From IMG/VR virus record IMGVR_UViG_3300037189_026210, positions 1 to 64,000 of that record: a stretch of DNA of 64,000 bases; one strand, 5' to 3'. Positions 693-25,800 of this stretch are shown here, piece by piece (position 1 is the stretch's first letter; each line of letters begins with the position of its first letter). The stretch is from a virus. The notes under the pieces were generated by a model. It was not told where the DNA came from, ran no database searches, and worked only from the letters and a program-made list of their open reading frames with translations. A program made the position numbers and the translations under genes.

Positions 693-700
693 CACTCCTA

Positions 701-709: not shown

Positions 710-718
710 CTATATAGT

Positions 719-2995
719 ATGGCCATAAAGTTTAATCATGTAACAAATACAATCTCTTTTACGTCTGGCGCTTGCTCGTCGTCATTTGTTGATTCTTCAG
801 CTACTGGAATTTTTGAAACAACTGGTTATGCGCGTACATGCTATGTAACTAATGGGCAGACTGGTAACTTTGTAACTACGTCGCAAACGGGCGTATTCGC
901 ACTCTCCGCTAATACTGGTAACTTTGTAACTACGTCGCAAACGGGCGTGTATGAAACGACTGGCTATGCACGTAATTGTTACGTAACTACTGGACAGACA
1001 GGAAGTTTAAATTATGTTAAATGTCCATCTTCTCCAAGTGCTGGCTGTGTGATTTGTTATGATGGATCAAACTGGGTTGCTGGCACTTCCGCTGGCGGTG
1101 GTGGTGGCGGAACTACATTACCAAATGGTTCTACCGAAAATTCTGCATTATGCTGGAATGGTAGTTCTTGGACTACTGGACAAACCTATGTTGCGACTGG
1201 ACAAACTGGTGATTTTAATCCATTTATTTCTGATACTGTGAATTGTAATTTAAATTATAAATATGATTTAAATATAGTTTCTAATTCTACTGGTTCCGCT
1301 ATTTTTCAAGGCAACAATAACTCAATTAGTGGGCAATTAAATTCCCAAATAAATAATGGATCTTTTAATTCTATTAATACAAATGGATGTTATAACTATA
1401 TAGAAAATGGTTGTTTAAATTGTGTTGTTAGCGGTTCGTGTTTTTCAGAAATTTTAAACGGTATTTGCAATTCTATATCTGGAGGGTATTTTTCTGCAAT
1501 CGCAAATGGTAGTGGGAATTTAATTAGAGGAGGTTCCTCAATGGGCATATTTAATTCTCTTAGTTCGTGTATTTTGGGGACTACAGCATTTGCAAATACA
1601 ATACTTGGTGGATGCACCCATGTTATGTCAAGCGTTAACAGATCTATAGTTATTGGAGGGCTTTCGAATCATATTTGCGCTAGTTCAAATGATGCTGTTA
1701 TAAATGGTGGTCGCAGCAATATAATATGTGGTGCTGTAATTTCTGTACTGATAGGTGGAAATTGCAATAGATTATGTCATGGACCTGGAGCTTGTACTGC
1801 GACTGGCAGTATAATTATTGGTGGACAACAATCTGCAATTGTCGGATCTGGTTGTAGCGTTAATTTTAGCACATTGATTAATTCAGTTTCTGGATGCATT
1901 TCTTCTGGATGTATTAATACAATAATTAATGCTACATGTTCATGCATAGTTAGTGGAGCTTCAAATTCAGTAATTATTGGTTCTAGAAATACTATATCTG
2001 GTTACACAGGAGCTATTATCATTGGTTCTGGAATAACTGCAAATGCAAATAATACGTTGTTTGTTAGTAATTTACATTCTACTGGAATTATAAGTGGTGG
2101 TAGTATTTGTGGCACTGGCAATTTTGTTACAACATCGCAGACTGGAGCATTTGCTCCAGCTGTAGGAACTGGGATTTTTGTAACAACTGGACAAACTGGA
2201 TCTTTTTCATATGTCAGGTGTCCAAGTTCTCCAAGTGTTGGCTGTGTTATTTGTTATGATGGTTCAAATTGGGTGGCTGGAACTTCTGCTGGTGGCGGTG
2301 GTGGAACTACATTGCCAAACGGCACATCTGCAAATTCCGCTTTATGTTGGAATGGTAGTGCTTGGACAACTGGACAAACTTATGTTGCTACAGGTGCAAC
2401 TGGTAATTTTATAAATACATCTCAGACAGGAGGATTTGAAACAACTGGCTATGCGCGCTGTTGTTATGTAACAACTGGTCAAACTGGAAATTTTGGTGGA
2501 GGAGGAACTACGCTTCCTAATGGAACAGTTGCAAATTCTGCGATATGCTGGAATGGATCAGCGTGGACTACTGGACAAAGTTACGAAACAACTGGCTATG
2601 CACGCCGTTGTTACGTAACAACTGGTCAAACTGGAAATTTTTTAACTACAGCGGAAGTGCAAACTGGAAATTTTGCATTATTAAATCCAACTCCAATATC
2701 TACTACTTCTACAAATTATACTTTGGGCTTATCTGATAATGGAAAACCAATTATATTTAATACTAATGTTGTTACAAGTTTATTTGTTCCTCTTAATTCT
2801 GCAATTTCTTTTCCGTCTGGAGCCCAATTAACAATATTTCAAAAAGGAACTGGAATTGTGAATATAACTGGAAATGCAGGCGTTTCAATTTTATCAAATG
2901 GAAATAGATATAATTTAGTGGGTCAATATTCAATGGCTTCTCTTATTAAAATAACCACTAATGAATGGGCCTTGGGTGGCGATTTAACAGTTTAA
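719..2995 (+). CDS. Cysteine-rich repeat tail fibre with C-terminal beta domain
   Basis: This is a 758-residue low-complexity fibre. Units of the type TTGYARxCYVTTGQTG and FVTTSQTG recur from about residue 30 to 90 and again near 490-650. A larger module with two CxxC-like pairs, a Gly run and CWNGSxWTTGQTYVATG occurs at residues about 99-166 and 498-564, with a shortened third copy near 600-635. The centre (about 170-470) has irregular 7-10-residue repeats (NSISGG, NTIISG, IIIGG) typical of stacked beta-roll coils, with Cys at many turns. The last 100 residues resemble the terminal beta domain of many phage fibres and end WALGGDLTV. It is probably a virion receptor-binding fibre. No enzymatic motif is visible. 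Confidence 0.8.
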   Translation: MAIKFNHVTNTISFTSGACSSSFVDSSATGIFETTGYARTCYVTNGQTGNFVTTSQTGVFALSANTGNFVTTSQTGVYETTGYARNCYVTTGQTGSLNYVKCPSSPSAGCVICYDGSNWVAGTSAGGGGGGTTLPNGSTENSALCWNGSSWTTGQTYVATGQTGDFNPFISDTVNCNLNYKYDLNIVSNSTGSAIFQGNNNSISGQLNSQINNGSFNSINTNGCYNYIENGCLNCVVSGSCFSEILNGICNSISGGYFSAIANGSGNLIRGGSSMGIFNSLSSCILGTTAFANTILGGCTHVMSSVNRSIVIGGLSNHICASSNDAVINGGRSNIICGAVISVLIGGNCNRLCHGPGACTATGSIIIGGQQSAIVGSGCSVNFSTLINSVSGCISSGCINTIINATCSCIVSGASNSVIIGSRNTISGYTGAIIIGSGITANANNTLFVSNLHSTGIISGGSICGTGNFVTTSQTGAFAPAVGTGIFVTTGQTGSFSYVRCPSSPSVGCVICYDGSNWVAGTSAGGGGGTTLPNGTSANSALCWNGSAWTTGQTYVATGATGNFINTSQTGGFETTGYARCCYVTTGQTGNFGGGGTTLPNGTVANSAICWNGSAWTTGQSYETTGYARRCYVTTGQTGNFLTTAEVQTGNFALLNPTPISTTSTNYTLGLSDNGKPIIFNTNVVTSLFVPLNSAISFPSGAQLTIFQKGTGIVNITGNAGVSILSNGNRYNLVGQYSMASLIKITTNEWALGGDLTV

Positions 2996-2999
2996 TTTT

Positions 3000-5423
3000 A
3001 TGCCATTAAATACTTTAGGATCTTTATCGGGAAGTAGATCTAGATCACTGCCGCCTTATGCAATAAAAAGGCAACCTCAAAATTTGCAAAAAGTAGTAAA
3101 TGATCCAAATCCAAAATTTTTTGTTGAAGTGGCATCTAGAGTTGCAGTTAATTTAAATTATCAATGGAAAAGGGGTACTTCTTTATTGAATTTAACGAAT
3201 ATTCTTAATGCTAATAGTTCTTCATATTCTCCTCAAGATGATGCCGTTGGTGTTTATTATTATCAGTGTGAAATATCTTCATCAATTTATTCTACAATTC
3301 AAACGGAAATTAAAACATTTATTGTGAGTAATTTTTGGACTGCTAGAAATTCTGAAAGAAGTTATACTGCAATTGCGATGAGTAACGACGCAACAATACA
3401 AACTGCAACCGCTACAGTTCCTTATACTGGTGATAAAATTTATGTTTCAACAAATTCTGGAGTAACTTGGACGGCAAGAGATAGTAATAGAAATTGGTAT
3501 GGCATAGCCATGTCTTCAAATGGAGTTAGGCAAGCTGCAATAAATAGAGATGGAAGAATTTATCTTTCTACAAATTCTGGAACCACTTGGGGATCGACAA
3601 TAGGATTTGATAGAGTTTGGACGAGCGTGGCAATGAATCAAGATGGATCAATTATAGTCGCAACCACTAATGGATCACAAGGCATTCCGACTAGTAGAGT
3701 TTACATATCTTTGAATTCTGGATCTACTTGGACTGCAAAAGATCCAGCTATAGTAAATCCAACTACGCAATTTGAATATGATAGAAATTGGAATCAAGCT
3801 TCAATATCTGCAGATGGAACTAAAATAATTGTTGTTGGTGGAGCTTATGAGTACTCCTATTCAGGAGGTGTATTTCTTTCCGTAAATAGCGGAAGCACCT
3901 GGACACAAATATTAAATCTTACTGGTTTATCATATATAATAACGCAAATTAAGATATCAAGGGATGGAAATTTAATTTCCTACATAACTAATGACAAAAA
4001 AGTTTACAAAAGCACAAATTCAGGAGTTACATGGACAAGTGTTAATTTAGTAGATCCAGATGGAGCAACTAATTGGTGGCCTTCATCAATTTCACTATCG
4101 CTTGACGGTTCAAAACAATTTATTTCAACCTTCATGATAAATGGACAAGGATATAGCGATCGATCTAATATATTATTTAAATCTTCTGACTATGGAAATT
4201 CTTGGACAAAGCAATATATTGAATGGCCTTACACATGGACTGGTTCTGATATATCTTCTGATGGCTCAAAACAAACTATAATAGCAGGAAGAATATTTAC
4301 TTCTAGCGACTCTTCTACAAGAGTTAATCCTGCAACCCAAATTGGAGAATCGTTAGAAAAATCTACATCAAATGATGTTGCAGATATTAATAATGCAGGA
4401 GATAGATTAATTTTGGGAAATTTTCGGGCTCCCAACAATTTATTTGGTTGGGCAAAAGTTTATTCTTGGAATGGCGCAAGTTGGGTTCAATTAGGCTCAG
4501 ATATTACTGAATTAATTTCAAACCAAACTCAAGACAGCTCTTTTGGTTCGGGCGTTGCAATAAGTGGAGATGGAAATACAATAGGAATTTATGCATATAA
4601 ATATGACACTACTGCACGCATATTAACTTTTTCTTGGGATGGAGAAAAATGGAATAAAATTGGATCAACTTTAAATATTTCTGGACTTCCTTATGGATCG
4701 GTAGCTTACGGCGGAAAAATTATATTTAGTTCTTCTGGTAATAAAATGGCGGTTCAAAATTATAGTGTGCTTGGCAGCGTAAATGCTTATTCTTGGAGTG
4801 GATCAGATTGGGTACAGCTTGGCTCAACAATGAGTGGAGGAACTGTTGATAGTTTTGCTAAAGATATAGCCATGAATAATTTGGGAGATAAAATAATTAT
4901 TGGAGATTATCTTAATGACGGTGGAGGTACTAGTGGATCTAAGAGAGGTAGAGTTTTAATATACTCTTGGAATGGCTCAGATTGGGTACAATCTATTTTA
5001 AATGGATCAACTAATAATGATTCATTTGGAATGAAAGTTTCAATTAATGGCGATGGCACTAAAATAGTTGTAGCTTCAAATGCTGGAATTATAAGATCGT
5101 ATTCTTGGAATGGTTCAGCTTGGATTCAAATTGGTTCTGACATTAATTTATCCTCTTTATTGCCTATTGATTACGATAGATATATTGATATAAATGATAA
5201 TGGCGATAAAATTGCTATTGGATGTCCAAATGCTGACTATTCAGGATTTACTACTGGCGTTACTAAAATTTATTCTTTAGTTTCTGGAAACTGGGTGGAA
5301 AATGCTATTGATATCACATCATCGATAATGCAATATTCAGGAAAATCTGCAAAATTTAATTCTACTGGAACCGTACTACTTTCTATGGGAAATACTTTAG
5401 CTAAGGTATATTCTTTACCTTAA
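3000..5423 (+). CDS. Virion protein with Ig-like domain and two beta-propellers
   Basis: The 807-residue protein starts four bases after the previous stop. Residues about 30-108 look like an Ig-like sandwich (NLNYQWKRG ... GVYYYQCEIS). Residues about 110-455 carry at least six Asp-box/BNR signatures (STNSGVTWT, SLNSGSTWT, SSDYGNSWT and similar) separated by SxDG-type strands, as in sialidase and Vps10-type propellers. From about 465 to the end a different repeat appears (SWNGSDWVQLGS followed by FGxxVAISGDGxxI), five times, suggesting a second propeller. Its place after two fibre genes suggests a carbohydrate-binding adhesin on the tail or baseplate. Sialidase catalytic residues were not identified, so hydrolase activity is not claimed. 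Confidence 0.7.
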   Translation: MPLNTLGSLSGSRSRSLPPYAIKRQPQNLQKVVNDPNPKFFVEVASRVAVNLNYQWKRGTSLLNLTNILNANSSSYSPQDDAVGVYYYQCEISSSIYSTIQTEIKTFIVSNFWTARNSERSYTAIAMSNDATIQTATATVPYTGDKIYVSTNSGVTWTARDSNRNWYGIAMSSNGVRQAAINRDGRIYLSTNSGTTWGSTIGFDRVWTSVAMNQDGSIIVATTNGSQGIPTSRVYISLNSGSTWTAKDPAIVNPTTQFEYDRNWNQASISADGTKIIVVGGAYEYSYSGGVFLSVNSGSTWTQILNLTGLSYIITQIKISRDGNLISYITNDKKVYKSTNSGVTWTSVNLVDPDGATNWWPSSISLSLDGSKQFISTFMINGQGYSDRSNILFKSSDYGNSWTKQYIEWPYTWTGSDISSDGSKQTIIAGRIFTSSDSSTRVNPATQIGESLEKSTSNDVADINNAGDRLILGNFRAPNNLFGWAKVYSWNGASWVQLGSDITELISNQTQDSSFGSGVAISGDGNTIGIYAYKYDTTARILTFSWDGEKWNKIGSTLNISGLPYGSVAYGGKIIFSSSGNKMAVQNYSVLGSVNAYSWSGSDWVQLGSTMSGGTVDSFAKDIAMNNLGDKIIIGDYLNDGGGTSGSKRGRVLIYSWNGSDWVQSILNGSTNNDSFGMKVSINGDGTKIVVASNAGIIRSYSWNGSAWIQIGSDINLSSLLPIDYDRYIDINDNGDKIAIGCPNADYSGFTTGVTKIYSLVSGNWVENAIDITSSIMQYSGKSAKFNSTGTVLLSMGNTLAKVYSLP

Positions 5424-10758: not shown

Positions 10759-13700
10759 ATGGCAGAAGATATTCGTTTATCAGTAGGAGCGGACACAACG
10801 CAAATGGAATCGCAGATAGCTAACGCTGCGCGTAAGGCTACTGTCGTAATTAGACCAACTATTGATTCAAAAGGTCTTGAAAAGATTAGCGCTCCACTTG
10901 GTAGAATTACTGGTCAAGCAGACGAATTCTCAAAATCGATGGAAGCTGCAAACGCTCGCGTACTTGCGTTCGGCGCATCTGTTGGAGTATTAAATGCTGT
11001 AGCAAAAAGTTTTCAGAATATAGTTACTGCTAGTACTCAAGTTGAAGCTTCACTTAAAGAAATTCAAGTAGCCACTGGAGAAACAAGCGGTAATTTAGAA
11101 AAGCTTGGAAAGGGAATATTTGAAGTCGCAAGATCTACTGGGCTATCTTTTAAACAAGCATCTGAAGCTACGTTAGAATTTGCTCGTCAAGGTGGAACTT
11201 TAGAAGATTCCTTGATGAAGGCAAAGGCGGCACTAGTATTGACAAGAACTACTGGCTTGGATGCAGCAGAGGCAGTAAAGGGTCTTACAGCTGCTGTATT
11301 GTCATTTAATCAAGTTGGTTTAGATTACGAAACTGTCGTAAATAAACTTGCTGCAGTTGATACTAAGTTTGCAGTTAGTTCTAGAGATTTGATTGAAGGC
11401 ATTTCTCGTTCAGCTTCTGTTGCCCAAGAAGCTGGAGTTTCGTTTGATGAATTAACAGCTTTAATTACAACATTGCAAGAAAAAACTGCGCGTGGTGGAG
11501 CTGTAATTGGTAACGCTTTAAAAACAATTTTCCAAAGAGTTCAGACTACCGAAAATCTTGATTATATTAGAAATTTAGGCATCGCAGTAAATGATGTTAG
11601 TGGTGACATTCTTCCTGCTACTACAATCATTAAAAAACTTGCAGATGAATTTCAAAATTTAGATTCAGCAACAAGAAAAGGTCTTTTGATAAAGATTGGT
11701 GGTGGTTTTCAAATTGATAAATTAGCTGCACTTCTTAATGATATATCAAATGCTAATGGCACATTCAATAGAAGTTTAGAGCAATCATCTAACGCTGGAA
11801 ATCAAGGTTTTAAAAAGTTAGATGAACTAAATAAAACAGTTCAAGCTTCATTTGATAGGCTGACAACTTCTGGAACTCAGTTTGCCGCAACCATTGGTAA
11901 GGTTGCTTTTTCAGATGATTTTAGATCTATTTTAAATAAGACCTCTTCTTTTCTCGAATCTTTAAATGAAAGTATTTCTGGTGGAGAAGAAGGTGGCGCA
12001 ACAATCGGGAAGGCGATTATTAAAGGAGTAGGTGCAGTTATCACAGGTCCAGGTGCTCTTTTAATTGCTGGTCTTGGTATTAAACTTTTTGGTGATCTTG
12101 CTAAATTTGGAGTTGACAGTTTAAAGAATCAACTCGGCGTAACTAATGTTAAAAAAGAACAACAAGATATAGAAAAATCCATACTGGGTTTATTGCTTCA
12201 AAATACAGCAGTTCAAAGTAAAATTGTTTCTCTGGAAGGCAATAAAACCGCACAAGCTGAATATCTTTTAGGTTTATATTCTAAACAAGCTGCAACCTTG
12301 GAAAAAATGTCCAAACTAAGTAAGGACATTGGGCCATCAGTTTATCAGGGTGGAATTAGATTAACTGAGGAAGGCACAAAAAACGTTAAATCAAAAACTG
12401 CTGCTGGTGGCTACATGTCTAAAGATGCTGCCAGAAAAATGGAAATGCAAGAAGCTCCCGCTGGCGCTTCCATAAGAGAAATTTCTAATTTTAATTTTGG
12501 CCCAACAGAGGGCAGAGGAACGATGATTGTTAACTCAATGGAGTCAGTACATAAGACTCCAATGGGAGATTTTGTTATTCCATCTTACTCTAAAACTAGA
12601 ACTGGAAAGCCAACTTTATTTTCGGCTTCTGGATATGTGCCAAATTTTGCGGAAGAAAAGCAAAAAGAAAATCTATTAAAAAATTTAAACATTGATGGCG
12701 GTGCTTATTCATTCGCTGGATTAACTATAGGCGGAACTGGCTCTAAGGCTGTTAGAGCAAAAGAAGTAACTCCACAAGTTCTTTCGCAAATCAAAGACCC
12801 AGTTTTATCAGAAGCGTTATCTAAGTATAGCAAACTTAATTTTTCAAACGTAAATGTCGGAAACATTTACAGAAGGCGTGACGAGAATTTAGATTCTCTT
12901 GAAGCAAGCGAACAGGACATCAAAAATCATTTTGTCAAAAAGGCAAACGACGCTTTAAGTCCCCAAATAGGAACTTTCATAAAAGATGAACTAAGTTCAT
13001 TGGGTATAAAGCCAACTGCAACAATGCAGTTGATGATGAACAGGGGCAAAAAATTTGATTTAGTTAATGACAGCATGGCGGGAACATTTTTCGAGACGAT
13101 GCTCAAAATGGCAAACATGTCTGCTGAAGATGAAAATTTTGGTCAGTTTTTCAACGACTCAAATAGTAGATTCGATATTTATGGATTAAAGCCAGACATT
13201 GCAGAGCAATATGGATTGCCTAAAAAGTTTTGGGAATATGTTGAAATTAAATCTTCCGAAAAAGCTTTAAATGACGAGTTGGGTACAAAATTTATACAGC
13301 AGCTTTCTCAGTCTGGAGGTGAATCTTTAAAGTCTAAATTTTTAGCTCAAGCAAAAACTGGAGCTGGAGGATATGTGCCAAATTTTGCAAAAGAAAAAAT
13401 TTCTGCCCTTAAAAAGGGGGGCAAAGGTGGTGGCAATTTAGGATTTTATTATGATGATGGAGCTAAAGAATCTGATGATTATTTAGAATCTGGAAACGTA
13501 ACAATAAAAAGAAAAAAGAATAATAAAAATGCAATTGCGTATAGGAGCGATGCAAAGGAATTAATTAATGACGCGAGAAAAATAGGCAGTTATTCAAACA
13601 TTAAAAATACTTATGGATCTTATTTAAGCCCTAAATTTGAATATGATAAAATTTTAGATCCCAACACAAAAGAAAGTTCTTTGGGTGGTTTAATTAGCAA

Positions 13701-16700
13701 TTTACAGGGAGCGATTGCAGAAAAGGAATTTAAGGATCAATTTGCCGCTTATGTAAAAGTAGAAGATTTTAATGCTGGAATCGATTTTCATGATAGCAAT
13801 AAAAAAAGATTAGTAGAAATAAAAGCAAGAAGAGCTGCTCTGGGACAAAAAGAAGCCAATAACAAAGTTTTAGCTTTTTTAGGCTCTGAAGAAAAAGGAC
13901 AAAGAAAAAATAATCAATCTGAAAATTTAGATTCTTTATTGAAAGATATTGATTTTACAGTTTATGAATCTAATTATGATTTAAAAACAGCAGCAAAAGG
14001 TTATGTTCCCAATTTTGCGGGAACTACTAATTTTGAAGGTTCCGCATCTAGATACGGTTATAAAATCGGTCAAGTTTACAATAAAGGCGAAGAAGCAATT
14101 AAGGCCACATTTAATAATCCAACTACAGCTTTTAGTGGAACTGTAACTGGTAAAGAATCTTACGGGCGTAAATATGGAGTCACTGTTGATGAAAAAGGAA
14201 TTATCGCTTCAATTTTAGGAAATAATACTTTTGTTGCTGGAAAGGATCAAAGAAGAGTGTTAGAAAGTTTGGCCACCAGATTAAGTTCGCAAGGAGCAAT
14301 GGTAAAAGGATCTGGATTTAATATAGCTGGTCTTCAAGGAGGAAGACTAGCAACGAATCCAGATCAAGTAATAACTGCTAACATAAAAGGAAAATTTAAA
14401 AAAATTGATTATGAAAAACTTGATAAAATATTCCCCCGATTCTGGAAATCAAAAGGTTTAGGAGATGTCTGGGAAAAGACTAAACTCGCTGCTACGTACA
14501 AAGCCTCTCCAACCAGTTATTCTGAAATTATAAAAGATCGCCCAGATTTGCAAGAAACTTTAAGTTCTTCAAGCTTGCTTAGACAAAATAACACATTGCT
14601 GAGAGATGCTGCAGTAGAAGCTGTTTTAAAAAGAGATCCAAGTGTTGCTGGATTTTTAGTTGATATAGCTAATAGCGGTGATGAAGCTTTTTTAAAGCAA
14701 CAGGGGTATGGCGGCGCAGGTATTAAATATGCAATGCCGTTTTCTGGTAAGCCTTTTTCAGATATTGAAAATAAAGCCGTAAAAGAAGAAGAATACAAGT
14801 TAAGAAAAGAATATCAACAAAAAGGTGTATTCTACGGAGATTTCTTGGCTGAGAAAGAGAAATATTTAAAGTTTGGAAAGAATTGGAAATATGCTTCTGG
14901 AAGAAAATTCTTGCAACCAGATGGAGCTAAAACTGCAGCAAAAGGTTATGTTCCAAATTTTGCAAGTGGAGATGTTGATGGTGATGGAATAGTAACTAGA
15001 AACGATCCATTTATAAAAAAATTAATGGATAGTGCGAAGAAATTCTCTCCAGTTGGAAAAGAATTGGCAAATAATATCATTGGCAACTTATTAAATTTAC
15101 CTGAAGGTATAGACGTATTTGAAATAATTGAAAAATTAAAATTTGCAATGAAGGCTCAAGAGCCGTTTTCTGAATTGAACAGAATTAAAGAGCAGGCAGA
15201 ATTTGCAAGAAAATATCCTAAAAAAGCTGCAAGAATAAAAGAATATTTAGAAGCTGAAGAGGCGAGAAAAAGAAATAGAACTGCTGCCAAAGGTTATATT
15301 CCAAATTTTTCAAGAGAAGCTATTTTAGATGCTATAGGTCGCGAACAAAATGAATCTGGTTTGCCATTATCTGCAATTAAGGTAGTGCAAGACTCTCGCG
15401 TGCGTGGGCCTAGGAATCCCAATGGCTATGCAGTAATAAATAATCGTGATGAGCCAGATGGTAGAGTTCCAAACTTTGCTGTTCCATCTGGCGATTTAGA
15501 CCCAACTGCGGCTATAGAAGAATCTCTAAAGGGATTAAAAAATAGCTCATTAAGTCTTAATGACGCCTTTAAGAGAATTGCTGAAAATCTTAACGTAAGC
15601 GGAGAAAAGGTGGCTCAAGTTTTTGACAAGATGAATTTGAGCGGAAGTGATGTCACAAGCACTAATCAAACAGCCGCAGCAAATTCAGCTCAAAATACTA
15701 AACAGGAAACTAAAGAAGCTCAAAATAAAAAAACTACAAACGAAAAACAAAATAAAACAGTACAAGATTCTTTATACACTTTAATTAAGTGGCAAAGTGC
15801 AGTTTCTTTGGCGAGTGGAGTTATAAGTTCTTTTGGAGAGAATGGTAAAGTAGCTGCTGAAGTTTTAACTGAACTTTCTTCTATTGGTTTATTATTTACG
15901 CAAGGCAAGGAAGTATTAGAGGGGTTTACGAAAGATAGAAGTTCTGGAGCTGGAAAAGCTTTGAGGCTTGGCGGTGCTGGTAGGGACGGAGCTGCTTCAC
16001 TTTCATCTTCATTATCAATAGCTGGAAACTTTGGAAGAGTTGCTAATACTGCTGGTGTTGGTGTTGGCGGGGCAATTGGAGGTATTGCAGCAGGTTTAGC
16101 TGGTCCAGCAGCTGCAATTTATGCAACATATAAAATTATTGACATGGGAAATACCATATATAAAAAATATGGAGAAACTGCGGATAGAACTGCTGATGCC
16201 CTTGGAAGATTAAATGATATACAAAAAACCTACACTTTAAATTTAACTGAAGAACAAAAAGCCAAATCTGAATCTTTTGTTAAAAGAGTTGGAACTTTTG
16301 AAGCTGCAACAGCTTTTGATAGGGCGTTTAATTTTCAAAATTTAAATCCTTTAGATAAAACTACACAAACAAAAAATGCGCTTCAGTCTTTGGGTTTAGA
16401 GGGATCTGTAAATACAGGTATTCTTTCTGGTTTAACTCAAATTGTACAGCCTGAAGCAGAAAGAGAGTTTACAACAGAAAGAAAAAAGGGCAATAAACAA
16501 ATTACGCAAACTAAAATAATAGATAGAATGGTTGCTGAAAAAATAAATCAAATTGCAGAAGAATCAAAAACAAATTTTACAAATTCAAAAGAATTAGAAG
16601 ATTACAGAAGGAATCCTAAAACTGCAGCTTTTGATATTGTTTCTTTAATAAATCCGCAACTAGAAAAAATCGAAAAATCAAAAGAGTACATAGATAAAGT

Positions 16701-19700
16701 AAGTGAATTAGACAAGTTAGTGGCCGATAAATCGATTCCAAGAGAAGATGCAAAAATGCAGTTGAGAGATTTTATTGCTCAACGAATAAGTACTGGAAAA
16801 ATAGATTTTGATAAATTTTTTGCAAGTTTGCAAAAAAATTTCCAAGAGAATTCAAAAAAAGTTGGAGTAGATAATTTAGTAAAAAGTTTTATTGCTGAAT
16901 CATTTTTAATTCCAGCTGAAACTTTGAAAGCTCAAATAAATACGTTTGGTGAGCTTCAAAAAGTTATTCTCTCATATACTTCTGCGGAGGAAAATAATTT
17001 AGCTCTTAAAAAAGAATTATTAACAATAAATGCTCAAGAAAAAGCAAATATTGAAACTCAATTAAGATTAAAGCAAGAAGAAAGACAAACAAATGAACAA
17101 TTAGGAAATGCAGCTTTTGAATTTGTAAAAAACATACAAAATACTGCAATAACTAAATTGGGAACTTCTTTGCCAGAAAACTACAGTGCAACAAGAACTG
17201 CGGCAATGGAAAAATTTGCACAAAATGTATATAATCCGCAAACAACTGACGAGCAAAGGTTAAAATTTGCACAAGATGAAGTCAAAGCGATAAAATCTTC
17301 AGTTGACGCAAGTCAAGAAGTAAGTGCTGAAAAGCAACAATATTTAAATTATTTAGACCATGAAGTTAGACAGTTAGAATTTTCACAAAAACTTACTCGC
17401 AGTCAACAAGCCGCAAGAAGAGATATAATTCTAATAGAAAATCAAAGATTAGCAATTGCAACAAAAGACAATTTTATAGAAACAACTATAAGAGAATCTT
17501 TAACTGCAAAATTAAGCATAAATCAAAAATTATTAGATCAAGATAGGCAAAGGTTGGATATAGTTAGAAAAATAAGCGACATTCAATACGAAACAAAAAC
17601 CTTGGCAACGCCAAATCAAGATCCTTCTGTAAAAGAAAGATTGGATCTAGAAAGATCATTGGCTACAAGTGGGCCAAGACAAATGGAAGATTATCAGATC
17701 CAAAGGCAGTCAGCATTATTGGCTGATAGATTAAATGCATTAAATATTGCCTTTCAAAGAGGAGCAAACGCAAACGATGTTCAAAAAATAACAGAAGCCC
17801 AAGATTATCAATCTCTAGAACAGGCGCTTCAAACAGTTCTTAATAAGGAAGCGCAAAGCATAAATGATAGAGTCATTAAAGCTGGAGACGCATTTTTTAT
17901 TAAAGCGCAAGAAGCAGGAAGGGCAGTTGGAGAAGAAATATTTAAAATACTAAATTCGGTTTCTGAATCAGATATTCAAACTCAAATTAAGATTGCAAGA
18001 GGATTTGAATCATCAAATGATTATTTTGATCAAATAGAGCGTTCTAGCGCTGTTACACCAGCAGCGCGAATTGCCGCTAGTAGGGTTTTTGGAGATAAAT
18101 TGCCAACTGATCCCAGAACTGAATCTGGACTTCCTGCTTCCCCTGCTACTGCACGAAATGTACTTCTTGGTGGAACTCCTGTTCAAAATCCTAAAGATTT
18201 AATTAATGCTCAAGCGGAACAAACAATTAAACAATTAATTTTTGCACAAGAAAAAAGAGCATTAGATATAAAGTTGCAACTAACAACTGCTGAAATCGCA
18301 AACGCTCAGAAAGCAATTGATCTTAGAAAAGAAGAAAGAGATTGGCAGCAAAAATTAAGAGATTCTGCATTTGAATTTTATCAAACACAGTTGAGTCCAT
18401 ATCAATCTGAAAAAGCAGCCGCATATAGAAACATTGAAGAAGAAAAAACAAGAGGATTGCAGGAAAATACTGACAGAATGCAAGAAACATCGTTACGCAA
18501 TAGGCAAGCTGGACTTAACACTTTGATGTCCAAGGGCGCGTCTTCTTCTGAAATAAATAGCTATTTAACTGGAGAGAAAAAAGGTGGAGATATATTAAAA
18601 ACAATTGAAGATAGAAATATTGACAAAATGTATGGATTGGAAAAAGATCCATTTGCAGAACAAGTGGTAGAGGCGGCAAAAGAATTTAAACAAATCATAT
18701 TGGGTGCTGGGGCAGCATTCGTTGCAGGAAAAAAAGTTAAGCAAAATAATTTTACTAATGGAAGTTTGATCACAGACGATTTAGGCTTTAGCACAAAGCC
18801 AGAAAGTGAAAAAGCGCTTTCACCTCCAATTGATGGCGCAGTAAGCAACTTAAGAAATGAAGAATTAAAAGCTTCACTAAATAAAGCTAAACTAAATACT
18901 TATAGAGAAAATTTAGCTGCGGTATCTCCAGAAGTTGAAAGGATAAAAAGTATACCTGGACCAGTACCAATAAGTTCAGAAGAACAAGCCACATTGGACT
19001 ACGCTGAAGATTTAAAAAAATCAATAGAAGATCTTACTTCCGCTTTAAAAGAAAAAGCTCAACAAGAAAAAGATAAAAACACTTCAAACAACAACAGATT
19101 AATATTTGAAGCGGGTCAATCACCAATAACAGACAGATCGGGGCAGGTTACGCAGGTAGCTTCAAATAGAACAAAGACAGCTAATGAAAGATTTGCACAA
19201 GAAGAGCAATTCGGAAAAGGGTTTCGCGTTGGATTAAGAGATATAGATGACGAAATTACTAAATTCCAAGCAAAACTTGGAAAACAAATTCCAACAGATT
19301 TTAGAAATGGATTAGTTGATGCAATGAAAGCATTATCAGATCCTAATGCTACAACTTCATTAAGGGAAAGATTATTGGGAGTTGCCGCATCATTTCTCAA
19401 TAAAATCAATGATGCATTGATGAAAAATACCGCAGATAAAATTACTTCTGGAATAGGTTCTGGAATAGGTAGTATGTTCAATTTCGCTTCTGGAGGTCCA
19501 ATTAAGGGAGGCTCTGGGATTAAGGATGACGTTCCAGCAATGCTGATGGGTGGTGAATACGTTATTAAAAAGAATGTTGTCAATAAATATGGAAAAGATT
19601 TTTTTGATCAGATAAATTCTGGAAAAATGAAAGGTTTTGCAAGTGGCGGATTAGTTGGATTTCAAGAGGCGAACATTAAAGATACCGTAGTAAACGCAAA

Positions 19701-21024
19701 AAATTATATACCATTTGGTCAAACTAGAGTTGGCGATCTTTCATTCGACGAAAGTGGAAAAGTCATTGGACTATCAAGTTATACTGGTAAAGAGGAAAAT
19801 AAAGCTGACGCATTAGCAAAAGCTCAAACATCTTATTACGAAAAAAATGCTCAAAGTGGAGAAGGTGGATTTTTTATACCTGGAACATACGGACAAGGGG
19901 CAATAATGGGCCAAAGAGACTTACTTGCATACGCAACACAACAAACAGTTGGAACGCAATTTGATAAAATATCAAGCGGAAGAGATGGCGCTTCAGTAAA
20001 TCTTGCGGCTGGAAGTAGAAATTTATCTTTGTTCGGTTTAAGAAACCAAGACAATCCAATGACTGCCGATTATCTTGAATCGAAAAATAAAGCCAAGGAT
20101 CTTTATTTTGGAGGCGTTGAAGCTCAAAAACAAAAATTTTCAATAGAAGAAGAAGCTAGAAAAAGAATTGAAGAATATAAAGCTCAAATGGAAAAGGAAA
20201 AAAAAGCAGCCGAAAAAGCTTTTAGAAAATCAATTTTAACTAGCATAATTACTTCTGTTGCGATGGCTGGACTTTCTAAGATTGGCGATTCAATGGCTAG
20301 TGGTTGGGCTGCAACAGAAAATGCATCGCTAGCTTCTACTGGACAGAGCGCTTCTTTTGGAGATAAATTTTCTGGAATGTTTTCTGGCGGAATGGGCGCA
20401 GATGGAATGTCGTATGGTGGACTTTCAAATATATTCAATCAAAGAGGTTCAATGGATTTAAGTGTTATTGCTGGAGGTGGAAATGCGTATCAAATGAATC
20501 CATTAACAAAAAATTACGAATGGATCTCTAATGAAAAATACAATACAATGTTTCCAAGAGGAGCTAGTTATGGATCTTCTCCAAATGTCAATTGGGGCAC
20601 TGGTGTCAATGGAATGAAGATGTACACCCCAATGCGTAGGGCAGCTGGTGGTTATGTTGCTGGAAATGGAATGGGTGACAATGTGCCCGCAATGCTTAAT
20701 GGTGGTGAATTTGTGGTGTCTAAACAAGCTGCAGAAAAAATTGGATATGGAAATTTGCAAAATTTAAATTCAAGCCAAAAACCAACAACCGATTCAAGTG
20801 AATTAATAAGTAGATTGGAAGGGAAATTGGAAGAAATTTTTGATAAAGTTTCTGGAGTTGGAACAATTAATATTTCGGTAAGTTCAGATGGTAAAGGAAA
20901 AAATCAAGATTCGGAAACCAATTCTAACGAAGAAGAAAAAAATAGACAAATGGCAAGAAAAATCAAAGAAGTTGTAATGAATGTTTTGAAAGATGAAAAA
21001 AGATTAGGAGGCATGTTAAGGTAA
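10759..21024 (+). CDS. Giant tail tape measure protein with embedded effector-like cassettes
   Basis: The product has 3421 residues. Residues about 1-450 have the TP901-type tape measure layout (SMEAANARVLAFGASVGVLN; EFARQGGTLEDSLMKAKAAL; GGAVIGNALKTIFQRVQ), ending in a hydrophobic stretch near 425-445. Residues about 575-1575 hold six GYVPNFA-type motifs at 625, 871, 1081, 1396, 1512 and 1568 that delimit cassettes. Two cassettes have PD-(D/E)XK-like residues (E779, D806, E829-x-K831; E988, D1009, E1020-x-K1022) and one has a DxDxDG loop at 1405-1416. Residues about 1700-2900 are mostly long helices. Two copies of the D[DN]VPAMLxGGE motif lie near 2924 and 3307, common near tape measure C-termini. 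It sets tail length and probably delivers the cassettes. Cargo function is inferred. Confidence 0.9.
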   Translation: MAEDIRLSVGADTTQMESQIANAARKATVVIRPTIDSKGLEKISAPLGRITGQADEFSKSMEAANARVLAFGASVGVLNAVAKSFQNIVTASTQVEASLKEIQVATGETSGNLEKLGKGIFEVARSTGLSFKQASEATLEFARQGGTLEDSLMKAKAALVLTRTTGLDAAEAVKGLTAAVLSFNQVGLDYETVVNKLAAVDTKFAVSSRDLIEGISRSASVAQEAGVSFDELTALITTLQEKTARGGAVIGNALKTIFQRVQTTENLDYIRNLGIAVNDVSGDILPATTIIKKLADEFQNLDSATRKGLLIKIGGGFQIDKLAALLNDISNANGTFNRSLEQSSNAGNQGFKKLDELNKTVQASFDRLTTSGTQFAATIGKVAFSDDFRSILNKTSSFLESLNESISGGEEGGATIGKAIIKGVGAVITGPGALLIAGLGIKLFGDLAKFGVDSLKNQLGVTNVKKEQQDIEKSILGLLLQNTAVQSKIVSLEGNKTAQAEYLLGLYSKQAATLEKMSKLSKDIGPSVYQGGIRLTEEGTKNVKSKTAAGGYMSKDAARKMEMQEAPAGASIREISNFNFGPTEGRGTMIVNSMESVHKTPMGDFVIPSYSKTRTGKPTLFSASGYVPNFAEEKQKENLLKNLNIDGGAYSFAGLTIGGTGSKAVRAKEVTPQVLSQIKDPVLSEALSKYSKLNFSNVNVGNIYRRRDENLDSLEASEQDIKNHFVKKANDALSPQIGTFIKDELSSLGIKPTATMQLMMNRGKKFDLVNDSMAGTFFETMLKMANMSAEDENFGQFFNDSNSRFDIYGLKPDIAEQYGLPKKFWEYVEIKSSEKALNDELGTKFIQQLSQSGGESLKSKFLAQAKTGAGGYVPNFAKEKISALKKGGKGGGNLGFYYDDGAKESDDYLESGNVTIKRKKNNKNAIAYRSDAKELINDARKIGSYSNIKNTYGSYLSPKFEYDKILDPNTKESSLGGLISNLQGAIAEKEFKDQFAAYVKVEDFNAGIDFHDSNKKRLVEIKARRAALGQKEANNKVLAFLGSEEKGQRKNNQSENLDSLLKDIDFTVYESNYDLKTAAKGYVPNFAGTTNFEGSASRYGYKIGQVYNKGEEAIKATFNNPTTAFSGTVTGKESYGRKYGVTVDEKGIIASILGNNTFVAGKDQRRVLESLATRLSSQGAMVKGSGFNIAGLQGGRLATNPDQVITANIKGKFKKIDYEKLDKIFPRFWKSKGLGDVWEKTKLAATYKASPTSYSEIIKDRPDLQETLSSSSLLRQNNTLLRDAAVEAVLKRDPSVAGFLVDIANSGDEAFLKQQGYGGAGIKYAMPFSGKPFSDIENKAVKEEEYKLRKEYQQKGVFYGDFLAEKEKYLKFGKNWKYASGRKFLQPDGAKTAAKGYVPNFASGDVDGDGIVTRNDPFIKKLMDSAKKFSPVGKELANNIIGNLLNLPEGIDVFEIIEKLKFAMKAQEPFSELNRIKEQAEFARKYPKKAARIKEYLEAEEARKRNRTAAKGYIPNFSREAILDAIGREQNESGLPLSAIKVVQDSRVRGPRNPNGYAVINNRDEPDGRVPNFAVPSGDLDPTAAIEESLKGLKNSSLSLNDAFKRIAENLNVSGEKVAQVFDKMNLSGSDVTSTNQTAAANSAQNTKQETKEAQNKKTTNEKQNKTVQDSLYTLIKWQSAVSLASGVISSFGENGKVAAEVLTELSSIGLLFTQGKEVLEGFTKDRSSGAGKALRLGGAGRDGAASLSSSLSIAGNFGRVANTAGVGVGGAIGGIAAGLAGPAAAIYATYKIIDMGNTIYKKYGETADRTADALGRLNDIQKTYTLNLTEEQKAKSESFVKRVGTFEAATAFDRAFNFQNLNPLDKTTQTKNALQSLGLEGSVNTGILSGLTQIVQPEAEREFTTERKKGNKQITQTKIIDRMVAEKINQIAEESKTNFTNSKELEDYRRNPKTAAFDIVSLINPQLEKIEKSKEYIDKVSELDKLVADKSIPREDAKMQLRDFIAQRISTGKIDFDKFFASLQKNFQENSKKVGVDNLVKSFIAESFLIPAETLKAQINTFGELQKVILSYTSAEENNLALKKELLTINAQEKANIETQLRLKQEERQTNEQLGNAAFEFVKNIQNTAITKLGTSLPENYSATRTAAMEKFAQNVYNPQTTDEQRLKFAQDEVKAIKSSVDASQEVSAEKQQYLNYLDHEVRQLEFSQKLTRSQQAARRDIILIENQRLAIATKDNFIETTIRESLTAKLSINQKLLDQDRQRLDIVRKISDIQYETKTLATPNQDPSVKERLDLERSLATSGPRQMEDYQIQRQSALLADRLNALNIAFQRGANANDVQKITEAQDYQSLEQALQTVLNKEAQSINDRVIKAGDAFFIKAQEAGRAVGEEIFKILNSVSESDIQTQIKIARGFESSNDYFDQIERSSAVTPAARIAASRVFGDKLPTDPRTESGLPASPATARNVLLGGTPVQNPKDLINAQAEQTIKQLIFAQEKRALDIKLQLTTAEIANAQKAIDLRKEERDWQQKLRDSAFEFYQTQLSPYQSEKAAAYRNIEEEKTRGLQENTDRMQETSLRNRQAGLNTLMSKGASSSEINSYLTGEKKGGDILKTIEDRNIDKMYGLEKDPFAEQVVEAAKEFKQIILGAGAAFVAGKKVKQNNFTNGSLITDDLGFSTKPESEKALSPPIDGAVSNLRNEELKASLNKAKLNTYRENLAAVSPEVERIKSIPGPVPISSEEQATLDYAEDLKKSIEDLTSALKEKAQQEKDKNTSNNNRLIFEAGQSPITDRSGQVTQVASNRTKTANERFAQEEQFGKGFRVGLRDIDDEITKFQAKLGKQIPTDFRNGLVDAMKALSDPNATTSLRERLLGVAASFLNKINDALMKNTADKITSGIGSGIGSMFNFASGGPIKGGSGIKDDVPAMLMGGEYVIKKNVVNKYGKDFFDQINSGKMKGFASGGLVGFQEANIKDTVVNAKNYIPFGQTRVGDLSFDESGKVIGLSSYTGKEENKADALAKAQTSYYEKNAQSGEGGFFIPGTYGQGAIMGQRDLLAYATQQTVGTQFDKISSGRDGASVNLAAGSRNLSLFGLRNQDNPMTADYLESKNKAKDLYFGGVEAQKQKFSIEEEARKRIEEYKAQMEKEKKAAEKAFRKSILTSIITSVAMAGLSKIGDSMASGWAATENASLASTGQSASFGDKFSGMFSGGMGADGMSYGGLSNIFNQRGSMDLSVIAGGGNAYQMNPLTKNYEWISNEKYNTMFPRGASYGSSPNVNWGTGVNGMKMYTPMRRAAGGYVAGNGMGDNVPAMLNGGEFVVSKQAAEKIGYGNLQNLNSSQKPTTDSSELISRLEGKLEEIFDKVSGVGTINISVSSDGKGKNQDSETNSNEEEKNRQMARKIKEVVMNVLKDEKRLGGMLR
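12631..15480 (+). repeat. Six dispersed GYVPNFA-type protein repeats inside the tape measure gene
   Basis: The codons for G-Y/R-V/I-P-N-F-A/S start at 12631, 13369, 13999, 14944, 15292 and 15460. Three copies share the longer form TAAKGY[VI]PNF. Synonymous codons differ among copies, so they are maintained at protein level rather than recently copied. Intervals between copies are about 246, 210, 315, 116 and 56 residues, and each encloses a different domain. A role as linker, docking or cleavage site is inference. Confidence 0.85.
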
Positions 21025-21025
21025 T

Positions 21026-21853
21026 ATGATTGATCCTTCAAAATATAAAGTTTATTATTTAAGTGGAAATGTTAATAAAAAATTAATAGAACTTGATGGA
21101 ATAAATAATTTATCTGTAAATAAAAATATTTCATTTGAACCTTCTTTTTCACTAGGGGGAATTCAGTCCTCAAGCTCAATAAATGCCCCGCAAGAAATTG
21201 AATTAACATTTGATAGAACTTATACGCAAAAAGATCCATTGATTAATTTTACTGGAAATAATTTTATTGAAGAATTTTTTATTTTAAATGGAACTCAATA
21301 TTATCGATTAATGAATTTGTATTTGAAGAATTATTCTGTTGGCTTTTCTGTTGGAGAAATACCAAAAATTAATGTTTCGTTTGTTTCTTTTGGTGAAGAT
21401 GTTAATTTGATGGATCAAGTCCCATACTCTGATTTTTATCAGCTTAAATCTGAATTAGATATACCGAAACTTGGTTCTATATTTGTCAGTGGAATAAATA
21501 ATAATAATACATTTAAAGAAAACTTTAATATTTTTTCATTTGATTATTCTATAAATATAAATAGACAACCATACTATACGGTAGGAAGTTTAAAACCTAC
21601 TGAAGTATCTCCAGTTTTACCACTGGAAATTTCCACATCAATTAATTCAAAATTACCAAATTCTTCAAAAAATGCCGAAATGGCAAAGGATATATATTTA
21701 AATTATACTAATTTTGATATTATTATATCTGGAACAAGATCTATGTTTTCCCTTCCTTTTAGGAATGGAAAATTAATTAACACTTCTATTCAATTAGCAA
21801 GTCAAAATACCATAGAGGTAAAAAATAACTATTTAGGATATTATGGCTTATAG
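21026..21853 (+). CDS. Tail-tube-like / distal tail protein
   Basis: The 275-residue protein begins two bases after the tape measure stop, with AAGG upstream. It is beta-rich. Residues about 102-125 read NYSVGFSVGEIPKINVSFVS, matching the strand-loop-strand signature in the tail tube protein and in the gene at 27687. Position right after the tape measure is where siphophages place distal tail (Dit-like) proteins, whose core shares the tail-tube fold. It overlaps the next gene by 11 bases. The assignment comes from the shared motif and the order. Confidence 0.6.
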   Translation: MIDPSKYKVYYLSGNVNKKLIELDGINNLSVNKNISFEPSFSLGGIQSSSSINAPQEIELTFDRTYTQKDPLINFTGNNFIEEFFILNGTQYYRLMNLYLKNYSVGFSVGEIPKINVSFVSFGEDVNLMDQVPYSDFYQLKSELDIPKLGSIFVSGINNNNTFKENFNIFSFDYSININRQPYYTVGSLKPTEVSPVLPLEISTSINSKLPNSSKNAEMAKDIYLNYTNFDIIISGTRSMFSLPFRNGKLINTSIQLASQNTIEVKNNYLGYYGL

Positions 21854-22862
21854 AAATGATTTTTTTTACAATAGAGATTCTTCAGTAGACAGTAAGTATT
21901 CTTATGTAGCTGACTTATCTATCTATAAACCCATATATGGATCTTCCGTTGAATTTATTTCAAGATTAAATTTTTTAGAAACCGTAGATAATAGTTTAAA
22001 AATACTACCTTCTTCAGAAAATAATCTGACAGCAAAATATAATTTTATTTTTTTATTAAATGATAGCTTGCTTGGAAATTTATTGAAAACAATAGAAGTT
22101 GCTGGTGGATATAGATATTTAAAATTCATAGATCCATCTGGAATATACAAAGATATAGTTGGTCTTGTTGAAGATTATTCAATATCAAAAACAACAAGCA
22201 GCTTAAATGAATTGCGAATTACTGTGTCTTCATACATTAAAAGTCCTATTTTTACTTGGAGGACTAGTTCTTTTTTTAATGTAACAAACTCAAATACCAC
22301 GATAGCAAATAAAGCGTATAAAAAATATGAATTTATTTATGCAGAACCATCATTTATAAAAACTTCTTCGGGTCCAGATTTATATGATAGTGGAAATAAA
22401 ATGGATCATTTTTGGTTTGCTACTCAAGATTTTACTATGGACGGTTCTAAATATGCTCAATGGAAAACATTTTGGACAAAAAATTTTATATACGAAACGA
22501 AAATGCCATTTAATTTAGAAAACAAATTTGATGTTCATCAGCTTGAATACAAAAATTCTTTCATACAAAATATAAAACATAAAGATAATTCAAACTCCTT
22601 GAAGAAATTTGATGTAAAATTTGAAAATATAGACGATTTCACATGTAAATCTATTTTATTTTTTTTAGAAAAAAAATGCGGATATAGAAGGTTTATTTAT
22701 AAATTTCCTATATTTTTAAATACTAATAAAGTATTTATTTGCACTAGATGGAATCACGTTTTTAAATATAAAGACTCAAATGATATCAGTGCAACATTTA
22801 CAGAAGATCCAAATCCAAATGTTATAATAGATACGGCTGATAATTATTATTATTTAGTATAA
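21843..22862 (+). CDS. Minor tail protein, lambda gpM-like
   Basis: The 339-residue protein uses ATG within the end of the previous gene, with AGGA six bases upstream. The C-terminal part (about 265-325) has the layout of the lambda gpM / Phage_min_tail family: a helix ending FFLEKKCGYRRFIYKFP, then KVFICTRWNHVFKYKD and ISATFTEDPNP. The first 200 residues are an additional domain, with a duplicated strand-rich portion. In lambda-type tails gpM follows the tape measure and joins the tail tip, and the same order is seen here. This is the main sequence reason to predict a non-contractile tail. Confidence 0.65.
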   Translation: MAYRNDFFYNRDSSVDSKYSYVADLSIYKPIYGSSVEFISRLNFLETVDNSLKILPSSENNLTAKYNFIFLLNDSLLGNLLKTIEVAGGYRYLKFIDPSGIYKDIVGLVEDYSISKTTSSLNELRITVSSYIKSPIFTWRTSSFFNVTNSNTTIANKAYKKYEFIYAEPSFIKTSSGPDLYDSGNKMDHFWFATQDFTMDGSKYAQWKTFWTKNFIYETKMPFNLENKFDVHQLEYKNSFIQNIKHKDNSNSLKKFDVKFENIDDFTCKSILFFLEKKCGYRRFIYKFPIFLNTNKVFICTRWNHVFKYKDSNDISATFTEDPNPNVIIDTADNYYYLV

Positions 22863-22863
22863 T

Positions 22864-25800
22864 ATGGCAGAACCATTTCACAAATTAAATATAGATTGGG
22901 ATTTTGATGAAGAAAGCAAAAGTCTTTTATTTAATCCAGTTGTAAAAAGCACTGGAAATGATTTATTTTTTTCGTTTTGCGATTCAATGAAATCATTCTA
23001 TGAGGTTTCTGGATGCTCATATTTCAATATCTATGTAAACGAAATTTATCAAAACAATCCAATATTTATAAATGGTGTTACAAAGCCATTTATTTACATT
23101 AAAAATATTGGCTCTAGTGACGCAATTTTTATTGCCTCCAACTCTGGATTGAGTGGGGATTTTTTTAACTATAATAATTCAAAAATTTCTGGAATAGTTA
23201 ACTCTAGTTGTTGCAATTATATAATTTCCCCAAATCAATCTTTTGTTTTAACTATTCATGGAAACGTGGATGGGTCTAATTATTTTTCAAGTGGGTATTA
23301 TCCATTTGGATTCTATTATAATTTTAACAACATAACTGGAATAAATTTAAATTCAGAATTTCCAGCTTGCACTTTTAATTCAAAAAATATATTCTTGTAC
23401 GAAGAACTTAGCGGTGTTAATTACAACTTTATTGACACTGGTAGTTGCAATTTAAATATTGAAAATTGTTTAAATTTATCTTTTGATAAACCAATTTCAG
23501 GAAGTGGAGAAAGTTTATTTTTAAAAAATAATTCATATTTACTTTCAGAATGTTCAAATTTATTTAATGCTTCTTGCGAATGTTTTACTTTTGAAACTTG
23601 GTTTAAGGCTAAAAATAATTTTAGTCAAAATTGTATTGATGTAGCTGGACTTTTTGATTTGCATTATTTAAATTTATTATCAATAGATAAATTCGGATCA
23701 TTATCCGCTGGTACTTGTAGCGTTTCTGGAAAAAATGGCTACTGCTATTATAGCAATCAAAACTTTATTTGTTTTGGATTTGAAGCTGGAGGTGTTATTT
23801 CTACTGGTCAACTAGACGGAAAATTTTCATTAGATTCTTCTGAGTTTACTATTGAATTTTTTACTCAATTAAGATCTTCGCCTTCTCCAGATAATCATTC
23901 ATTAATTTCAATGAGTGGATTAGAGTTAAACTTGTATTCAAACAATCCATCTTGGCCTAGTTTTTTGATTGGTGATAATTGTTACTATTTTACAAGCTGC
24001 GAAATTGCCAATCATATTGGGATTGGCTCTGATTTTAAACATATAGCAATTTCAAAATATTCTGATTGTATTAAAATTTTTGTTGACGGCTGCACAATTT
24101 TTCAAACTGGATATACTGGAATCTTAAATTTTACTGGAGATTATTTAAACCTAGGTTCTAGCGCAAGCTCTTGTTGGCTTGCTGGCTCGATATCTAATTT
24201 TAGAATAATTAAAAATAAAGGATTATATAAAAAAGATTTTTTTAATTGCAAAGTGACTATGCCTTTGGGCGGTTATTTTTGTGGAGTATTTGGAGGCAAT
24301 TGTTATATAGATAATGTTTTTTATCAAGAAGCTGGCGCATTTCCAACTGGCGAGGTAATTGGTTATTCTGGAGTTGCATTTTTTAGAAATTGTAGTTTAG
24401 ATAATTTATTTTTAAATACTGGAAATTGGTTCAATGAATTAGATCTACCTATTTGTCAAATTCCAACTGGAAATTATTCCTGCATATACATATGCAATGA
24501 AACTGTACGCTCTTATGCACCCCTTTGTTTTCAAAATTTATTTTTGATAAATTCTTGTTTTTGTAATCTTGCTAATTTTAGTTATGGCAACATACTTGCA
24601 ATTGGAAATTCTGAAATAGAAAGAGTCGATAATTGTGGAGATGTAACACTTTGCGATAATTCTTGTATATCACTATCTAACATCTGGGGATATTCTTTAA
24701 ATATTTATCAAGATAGTGTAGCTAATAGCAATAATTGTTTAGCTGGCGAAGCTAAATTAATTGCTAGTGGATTTTCTGGAAGTAGATTTCAGTTATATTG
24801 CGGATCGTACCAGTATGTTTGCTACATTAATGGTAATGGAGGTGTCGCATGCTGTTTCGCGGAAAGATATAATTTTATAAAATTAAATAACAACGAATGC
24901 GTTGCATTTTTAGGGTTGACTGGTAGTAATTATGATTCTGGATTTCGTCAAGGGATAACTGGAGTACTGAATCCCAATGCTAATATATTTGAACCAATTG
25001 CAAGCCCAGTATTTACAGAATTTGATATTTTTAATTTTATTTCTGAAACTGGCTTAGTTAAAAATAACGAATGGAATCATTATGCCTTAACTGTTTCTGG
25101 CTTAAGTGGAAATATGTATTTAAATGGCTGCAAAGTTTTAGGGCCATGCGAAATATACAAAACTCCAATAATGAATGATTCTAGATTTATTTTAAATTGT
25201 TCTGTTTATTACAATACTGAAGAAGAGTATTTTTATGGTTTAGTGAATAATTTAAAATATATAAAAGATTGCATTTTATACACAGGTAATTTTTTAATCA
25301 ATAGTTGTTTTACAACTGGAGATTTTTTTGCACCAATAACTTTTACTTGCGAAAATTATTCGGATTTATTTATTAAATCTAATAGTTTTGATTCATTTGT
25401 TGATAATTGTGCAAATTTAAAAATTAAAACTTCTGGAGTAAATGAAATCATAGAAAGTGGATTATCTTTATTTTCTTCATACGGTTGTAATTGTTTTCAC
25501 TCTAATATAAAAATTAATAAAATATTACTTTACTTAAATAATGAACTTCAGTGTTCTTATGAGCAGCAATTTCCATCAAACTTGGTTGAAACTGTTATAA
25601 ATTCAAATTTAAATTATAAAATAGTATACTATCCAGAATTTATTTGTAATAAAGTATATAATTTTAAATATTTGAGATCTGGCACTGAAGGTGATTCTTG
25701 CCAATCAATATGCAAAAATAATTTAAATGAGATCAATTTAAATTTATCCGTTAATTGCTTGAATGAATTTTCAATTTGCGATAACACAAGCGATTTAATT

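Follow-up and report, generated by a model that had tools for sequence, protein, structure and literature searches.

The DNA analyzed here, hereafter the window, comprises positions 1 to 64,000 of the IMG/VR virus record IMGVR_UViG_3300037189_026210 (71,164 bases), and its genes include those for RNR, DnaB and a DNA polymerase. The subject of this report is a 3421-residue open reading frame (ORF) at 10759-21024. The first 625 residues of its product match PF10145 and many tape-measure families of PHROGs (E values in Table 1), and the second gene downstream (21843-22862) matches the lambda-type minor tail protein family Phage_min_tail (PF05939) at 8.6e-7, which falls under the family's curated cutoff. 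On the basis of domain homology and of position upstream of tail-tip genes, we identify the product as a phage tape measure protein (TMP).

This TMP contains six copies of the motif G[YR][VI]PNF[AS], which start at residues 625, 871, 1081, 1396, 1512 and 1568, so that start-to-start spacings are 246, 210, 315, 116 and 56 residues, and copies 3 to 5 share the longer form TAAKGY[VI]PNF. An earlier reading made from the letters of the DNA (the sequence-only reading) had described these copies, their spacings and the shared extension, and had placed the array between the N-terminal tape-measure domain and the long C-terminal body; we reproduced each of these features in the TMP ORF. The same reading had held that codons differ between copies and that the motif is kept by selection on the protein. 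The first statement was too strong, as an 18-nucleotide core, GGATATGTGCCAAATTTT, is identical in copies 1 and 2, with the remaining copies varying at synonymous positions. The second held up: across 150 TMP genes with the motif, same-residue codons agree between the copies of one gene in 53.7% of cases, compared to 47.6% expected from codon usage, and agreement this near to expectation indicates that the motif is maintained as protein. The slight excess fits occasional exchange between motif copies. In the 71,164-base record, a motif-encoding DNA pattern has five matches, all inside the TMP gene.

We scanned IMG/VR for sequences encoding GYVPNFA and GYIPNFA; at least 119 and at least 120 stretches matched, respectively, and among the matches listed there were 202 distinct motif-bearing ORFs, most of 1000-3500 residues, with up to ten matrix-scored copies. 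From related environmental loci fetched by motif or by homology (L-numbered below), we derived the consensus A-A-x-G-[YF]-[IV]-P-N-F-A. A motif matrix gave 750 hits in 369,596 residues of TMP ORFs, none in shuffled TMPs and one in 491,208 residues of other ORFs from the same loci, counts that exclude chance. The first copy lies at a median of residue 626 in the 92 ORFs having both ends, PF10145 is also N-terminal to the array in all five other motif TMPs checked, and the TMP N-termini long enough for comparison (n = 109) are all mutually detectable, with a median identity of 38%. We found no motif above threshold in the TMPs of Bacillus phages Slash and FADO and Lactococcus phage 949, which were chosen among the nearest named-phage matches and are ~25% identical across the N-terminus. 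A tblastn search with the array, its terminal domain and one nuclease-like cassette found nothing in 50,697 phage records, which leaves us with no isolate. A motif scan of bacterial genomes returned mainly single chance matches, and multi-copy motif ORFs were present in only two contigs, which are binned with a Verrucomicrobiales and a Flavobacteriaceae metagenome-assembled genome, a hint that hosts may belong to these groups. Judged from these searches, a TMP with motif-bounded cassettes is typical of a large environmental group of uncultured phages. The comparison that the sequence-only reading had called for, namely of multiple motifs in other TMPs and of the domains they enclose, showed the motif to be a family trait and the cassettes to be varied.

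The motif delimits exchangeable cassettes that are swapped between phages at the motif. The TMPs of L006 and L007 have N-termini 96% identical to that of the window over 420 residues, and their arrays differ. In window-gene coordinates the motif copies start at nucleotides 1873, 2611, 3241, 4186, 4534 and 4702; DNA homology between the window and L006 covers 1-3260 and resumes at 4171, homology with L007 covers 1-2586 and resumes at 4521, and L006 and L007 share 1-2604, 3258-4518 and then the region from 4833 (L006 coordinates). All ends of these homology blocks fall on a motif or within ~40 nucleotides of one. Among 200 deduplicated block ends inside the arrays of 150 genes, 67% lie no more than 30 nucleotides from a motif centre compared to 18% expected, a figure that is soft by itself because alignment ends gravitate to conserved sequence. 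Stronger evidence for motif borders, at the level of sequence comparison, comes from L024 and L131, which share one 699-bp cassette at 96.9% identity while identity over the N-terminal 1.9 kb of their genes is 69%; the shared segment begins at a motif in both genes and ends ~20 nucleotides into the next one. An independent test of the borders was provided by a P-loop cassette whose loci were retrieved by the cassette's own sequence, without the motif. The motif stands directly upstream of this cassette in 34 of 35 loci and directly downstream in 33, the loci that miss a flanking motif being one cut by a contig end and one 126-residue non-TMP ORF, and all complete TMP copies are flanked. That short ORF (L391:5980-6357) is a stand-alone relative of the cassette (37% identity) that does not form part of a TMP and is possibly a donor form. 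In 12 TMP pairs with 90-99% identical N-termini, only 42% have the same string of cassettes.

More than 130 cassette clusters are flanked by this one motif, which argues against its being a constant part of a single fold. A qualification is that 71 of 92 near-complete arrays end with a small conserved domain in the final slot, and this domain seems to belong to the scaffold. At least 312 IMG/VR stretches encode this motif-linked terminal domain. In both of our AlphaFold2 (AF2) models, most motif copies lie in low-confidence stretches between better-modeled domains. This is weak evidence that the motif is a linker-like peptide and not a core element of one fold, because thin alignments also lower the per-residue confidence score (pLDDT), and the low confidence would suit a motif that is cut, one that docks or one that simply links domains equally well.

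The contents of the arrays are diverse. We grouped 532 cassettes into 132 clusters, 82 of them singletons, and the 92 near-complete arrays, 190 to 1879 residues long, hold 48 distinct cassette strings. Most cassettes searched have no family match. Those that do include a CCA-adding enzyme (L097:7575-8981; NCBIfam 1.2e-41, Pfam 9e-15, PDB 2e-15) and a staphylococcal nuclease (L204:8760-9344; 1.9e-9, with a PDB match to thermonuclease), together with GNAT acetyltransferases, for which matches are weaker and one exceeds Pfam's cutoff, and the P-loop family, with GPAGxGKST. The L097 TMP combines the CCA-adding enzyme with several further cassettes, and the L039 TMP combines GNAT and P-loop cassettes. 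Two other cassettes carry suggestive residues: L073:2572-3222 has HEMGH and a downstream EAIADIFAD, is metallopeptidase-like and has no Pfam match, and L103:5535-6191 has LYRGQ...SFSTS, reminiscent by eye of ADP-ribosyltransferases. The commonest variable cassette, which is related to cassette 1 of the window, occurs ahead of the last slot in 57 of the 92 arrays.

We compared cassette 1 of the window with this largest variable cassette family and obtained an HHalign probability of 93. In an alignment of 63 sequences with ~18% identity, E159, D186 and K211 (E779, D806 and K831 of the window TMP) show little or no variation and follow the pattern GxxFE...FD...(D/E)xK, where the window has E829-x-K831; by this conservation the triad is a PD-(D/E)XK-type signature. 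As to the alpha-beta-beta-beta-alpha-beta core fold of that superfamily, the AF2 model of cassette 1 has a mean pLDDT of 75 and a best Foldseek E value of 1.2, which does not confirm the assignment. Cassette 2 is possibly a second PD-(D/E)XK-type domain: its signature GAIAEKEF..GIDF..LVEIKAR is conserved in L006, only two homologues are at hand, and its elements follow an alpha-beta-beta-alpha-beta order in an AF2 model of a long construct spanning cassettes 2-5 (mean pLDDT 58). For the window TMP itself, a multi-enzyme content is suggested by active-site signatures.

Table 1. Features of the TMP gene, in nucleotide coordinates of the window; residue numbers are those of the TMP.
Feature	Position	Strand	Basis or remarks
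TMP, 3421 aa, carrier of the cassette array	10759..21024	+	ORF; PF10145 3e-28; PHROG tail length tape measure, best 7e-48
PhageMin_Tail (PF10145) domain at TMP N-terminus, residues 122-315, ahead of the array	11122..11703	+	Pfam match
Motif copy 1, GYVPNFA (context SASGYVPNFA)	12631..12651	+	
Cassette 1, 239 aa, PD-(D/E)XK-like	12652..13368	+	E779 (13093), D806 (13174), E829/K831 (13243/13249)
Motif copy 2, GYVPNFA	13369..13389	+	
Cassette 2, 203 aa, possible second PD-(D/E)XK domain	13390..13998	+	E988/E990, D1009, E1020/K1022 (13720-13824)
Motif copy 3, TAAKGYVPNFA	13999..14019	+	
Cassette 3, 308 aa, no family match	14020..14943	+	Relatives in L061 and L024; remote in L006/L007
Motif copy 4, TAAKGYVPNFA	14944..14964	+	
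Cassette 4, 109 aa	14965..15291	+	Starts with DVDGDGIVTRND, a calcium-loop-like stretch; absent from the relative L007
Motif copy 5, TAAKGYIPNFS	15292..15312	+	
Terminal conserved domain, 49 aa	15313..15459	+	RE..G.P...I.V..D..........NP.G.AV.N.RDEP; AF2 pLDDT 93-96
Motif copy 6, degenerate DGRVPNFA, closes the array	15460..15480	+	
TMP body and C-terminus, no recognized cargo	15481..21021	+	Tape-measure PHROG 1.4e-11 in C-terminal part

Other elements of the TMP recall the array. The sequence RGTMIVNSMES, immediately ahead of the array (12514-12546), resembles RGTMVANTSE, which in 28 other TMPs makes up a short initial cassette with an additional motif copy ahead of it. Two C-terminal elements of the form DxVPAMLxxGE[YF]V (19525-19563 and 20677-20715), each preceded by AxGG, belong to a type that we found 107 times, spread over 73 of 150 motif TMPs; the start of these elements resembles the cassette motif, with no demonstrable homology to it. 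We also considered the terminal domain as a version of the C-terminal DVPAMLxxGEYV element, and profile comparison did not support this. Outside the TMP gene, 22864-27687, downstream of it, encodes a 1607-residue protein with a laminin-G-like lectin domain (1e-10) that is possibly a host-binding tail protein, and 53807-56215 encodes an 803-residue protein homologous to a family of phage ATP-dependent proteases (phrog_4871, 5e-204), which might serve in processing or unfolding.

TMPs occupy the phage tail and exit from it when infection begins. We propose, with a probability of about 0.6, that the TMP described here, like those of a large environmental phage family, acts as a carrier in which slots for exchangeable cargo are arranged in a row, that the cargo is delivered with the TMP, and that the motif is read by a common partner. 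The slots, each bounded by the consensus motif, would sit between the N-terminal tape-measure domain and the C-terminal body and would hold mostly small enzymes, predominantly nuclease-like. This cargo would ride with the TMP in the tail, exit with it at infection and act early in the envelope or the cytoplasm of the cell, with the nucleic acids and defenses of host or competitors among the conceivable targets. Each slot border would have to be recognized by one shared partner, which might be a processing protease, a chaperone or the tube wall, and this requirement would account for the protein-level selection on the motif; the recurring motif would also supply short homologies for cassette recombination. 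Cassette swapping at the motif suggests modular delivery of helper proteins with the phage DNA. The sequence-only reading had likewise proposed that domains riding in the tail tube are released into the host. Its view of the array as cassettes is borne out by the motif-bounded swaps, the single-cassette transfer and the enzyme families inside, while delivery through the tail is a reasonable extrapolation from what is known of TMPs and from published cases of injected effectors derived from them. Some TMPs carry wall hydrolases (PMC1796659), and TMP-related proteins are injected effectors of contractile systems, one of them with a nuclease domain (PMC11126660, PMC13277306). We infer that cassettes are packaged intact, delivered and active in the host, and that the motif has a partner.

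Several points weigh against this carrier model. The cargo role is deduced here from sequence. Folded domains of 150-300 residues, in several TMP copies, may exceed the tail lumen, so the cassettes may be threaded unfolded or may not be delivered in active form. Pfam and PHROGs give no family for any window cassette, profiles of cassettes 1 and 2 retrieved no PDB sequence, and Foldseek searches with both AF2 models, whose confidence is modest (75 and 58), found no PDB fold. As the loci were collected by motif or homology, our counts do not give true prevalence. The breakpoint figure is inflated by alignment ends at conserved motifs, an effect that cannot yield the single-cassette transfer at 97% identity.

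A tentative alternative, which we regard as possible, is that the motif serves as a docking peptide, whether for the tube wall, for a tail chaperone or for a second TMP copy, and keeps the cassettes in register without being cut. Its conserved Y/F, P, N and F resemble a bound peptide, it also frames the conserved terminal domain of most arrays, and the borders require a common partner even when uncut. However, the spacing of copies across the family ranges from about 50 to more than 800 residues and so gives no periodic match to tube rings, and a partner for the motif was not identified. If the motif were instead a protease site, the cassettes would be freed singly during virion maturation or after entry, which we consider somewhat unlikely. 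This would account for a nearly identical ten-residue sequence at all borders, whatever the neighbors, with near-random codons; the low AF2 confidence at the motif in both models would suit an exposed linker, one cassette has the HEMGH signature, and the separation of polyvalent proteins has been ascribed to peptidases that they themselves contain (PMC5512222). Yet cleavage does not follow from low pLDDT, we identified no protease that could be connected with the system, and the ATP-dependent protease homologue of the window is far from the TMP gene. Cutting and holding of the motif by its partner appear about equally probable. The most far-reaching form of the idea, a virion polyprotein serving as the delivery rail of a major uncultured lineage, in which a dedicated factor recognizes the borders and any domain between motifs is loaded, injected and released individually, is likewise somewhat unlikely.

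It is improbable that the cassettes merely fill or lengthen the tape measure instead of being cargo. TMP length generally follows tail length, and some cassettes are short, helical or without assignment, but others contain recognizable enzymes and a conserved catalytic-type triad, and the tenfold range of array lengths includes changes between phages with 96% identical N-termini. Least probable of all is that the motif persists mainly as a DNA crossover point with cassettes hitch-hiking, since a DNA site would be expected to conserve bases and not residues, and here codons are near random and residues nearly invariant across TMPs of 38% median N-terminal identity, even though breakpoints fall on motif DNA, different motif copies cross-match by blastn over 37 nucleotides and copies agree in their codons slightly more often than expected.

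The nearest established concept to the carrier that we propose is that of polyvalent proteins of phages and conjugative elements, long single polypeptides with several unrelated enzyme domains (PMC5512222). The L097 and L039 TMPs each combine two or more unrelated effector or enzyme domains in one polypeptide, a defining trait of such proteins. Polyvalent proteins are believed to enter the cell along with the DNA and to act early, and injection of the window TMP would follow from TMP ejection. In contrast to the arrays, no border motif is described for them in the sections consulted, where separation is ascribed to embedded metallopeptidases, and the word "tape" is absent from the main text of the paper (PMC5512222). 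As to the domains typical of polyvalent proteins (zincin peptidase, ART, SWI2/SNF2 and others), the candidates among our cassettes are the one with HEMGH, which lacks a Pfam match, and the one that is ART-like by eye. Tme of the Streptomyces davawensis contractile injection system is a TMP-like protein with a nuclease domain in a phage-tail-like particle; as far as the consulted part of its description goes, it has a single C-terminal EndA-like domain and DUF4157, belongs to a bacterial system and not a virion, and shows no row of motif-bounded cassettes (PMC11126660). Effectors of the Sle1 type in actinobacterial contractile systems share a TMP-related carrier and a species-variable, replaceable functional domain, but the portion of the report consulted describes one C-terminal functional domain behind an N-terminal coiled coil and no repeated border motif (PMC13277306). 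The window, by comparison, lies in a virus record with the gene content given above and not in a contractile-injection-system locus, and Pfam did not match DUF4157 in its TMP. The TMP of mycobacteriophage TM4 also has an embedded enzyme motif, a peptidoglycan hydrolase; that motif acts on the wall and aids infection of stationary-phase cells, and it is neither part of an exchangeable row nor nuclease-like or tRNA-modifying (PMC1796659). Bacterial polymorphic toxins likewise recombine effector cassettes behind a conserved carrier, with C-terminal toxin domains and immunity genes, whereas here there are several internal cassettes in a virion structural protein (PMC3482391). We did not find the motif or motif-bounded TMP cassettes described in open full texts, a coverage outside which most subscription papers and preprints fall. 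The arrangement is probably a virion-delivered multidomain effector carrier, and it may plausibly be more than that.

The phage proteins that are injected through tails, and how such cargo is loaded, form a poorly known field. If the carrier model is true, a short border tag would let the injected effectors of hundreds of environmental phages be listed from sequence alone, including many that belong to no known family, and the TMP would be a natural modular example of protein delivery via the phage tail.

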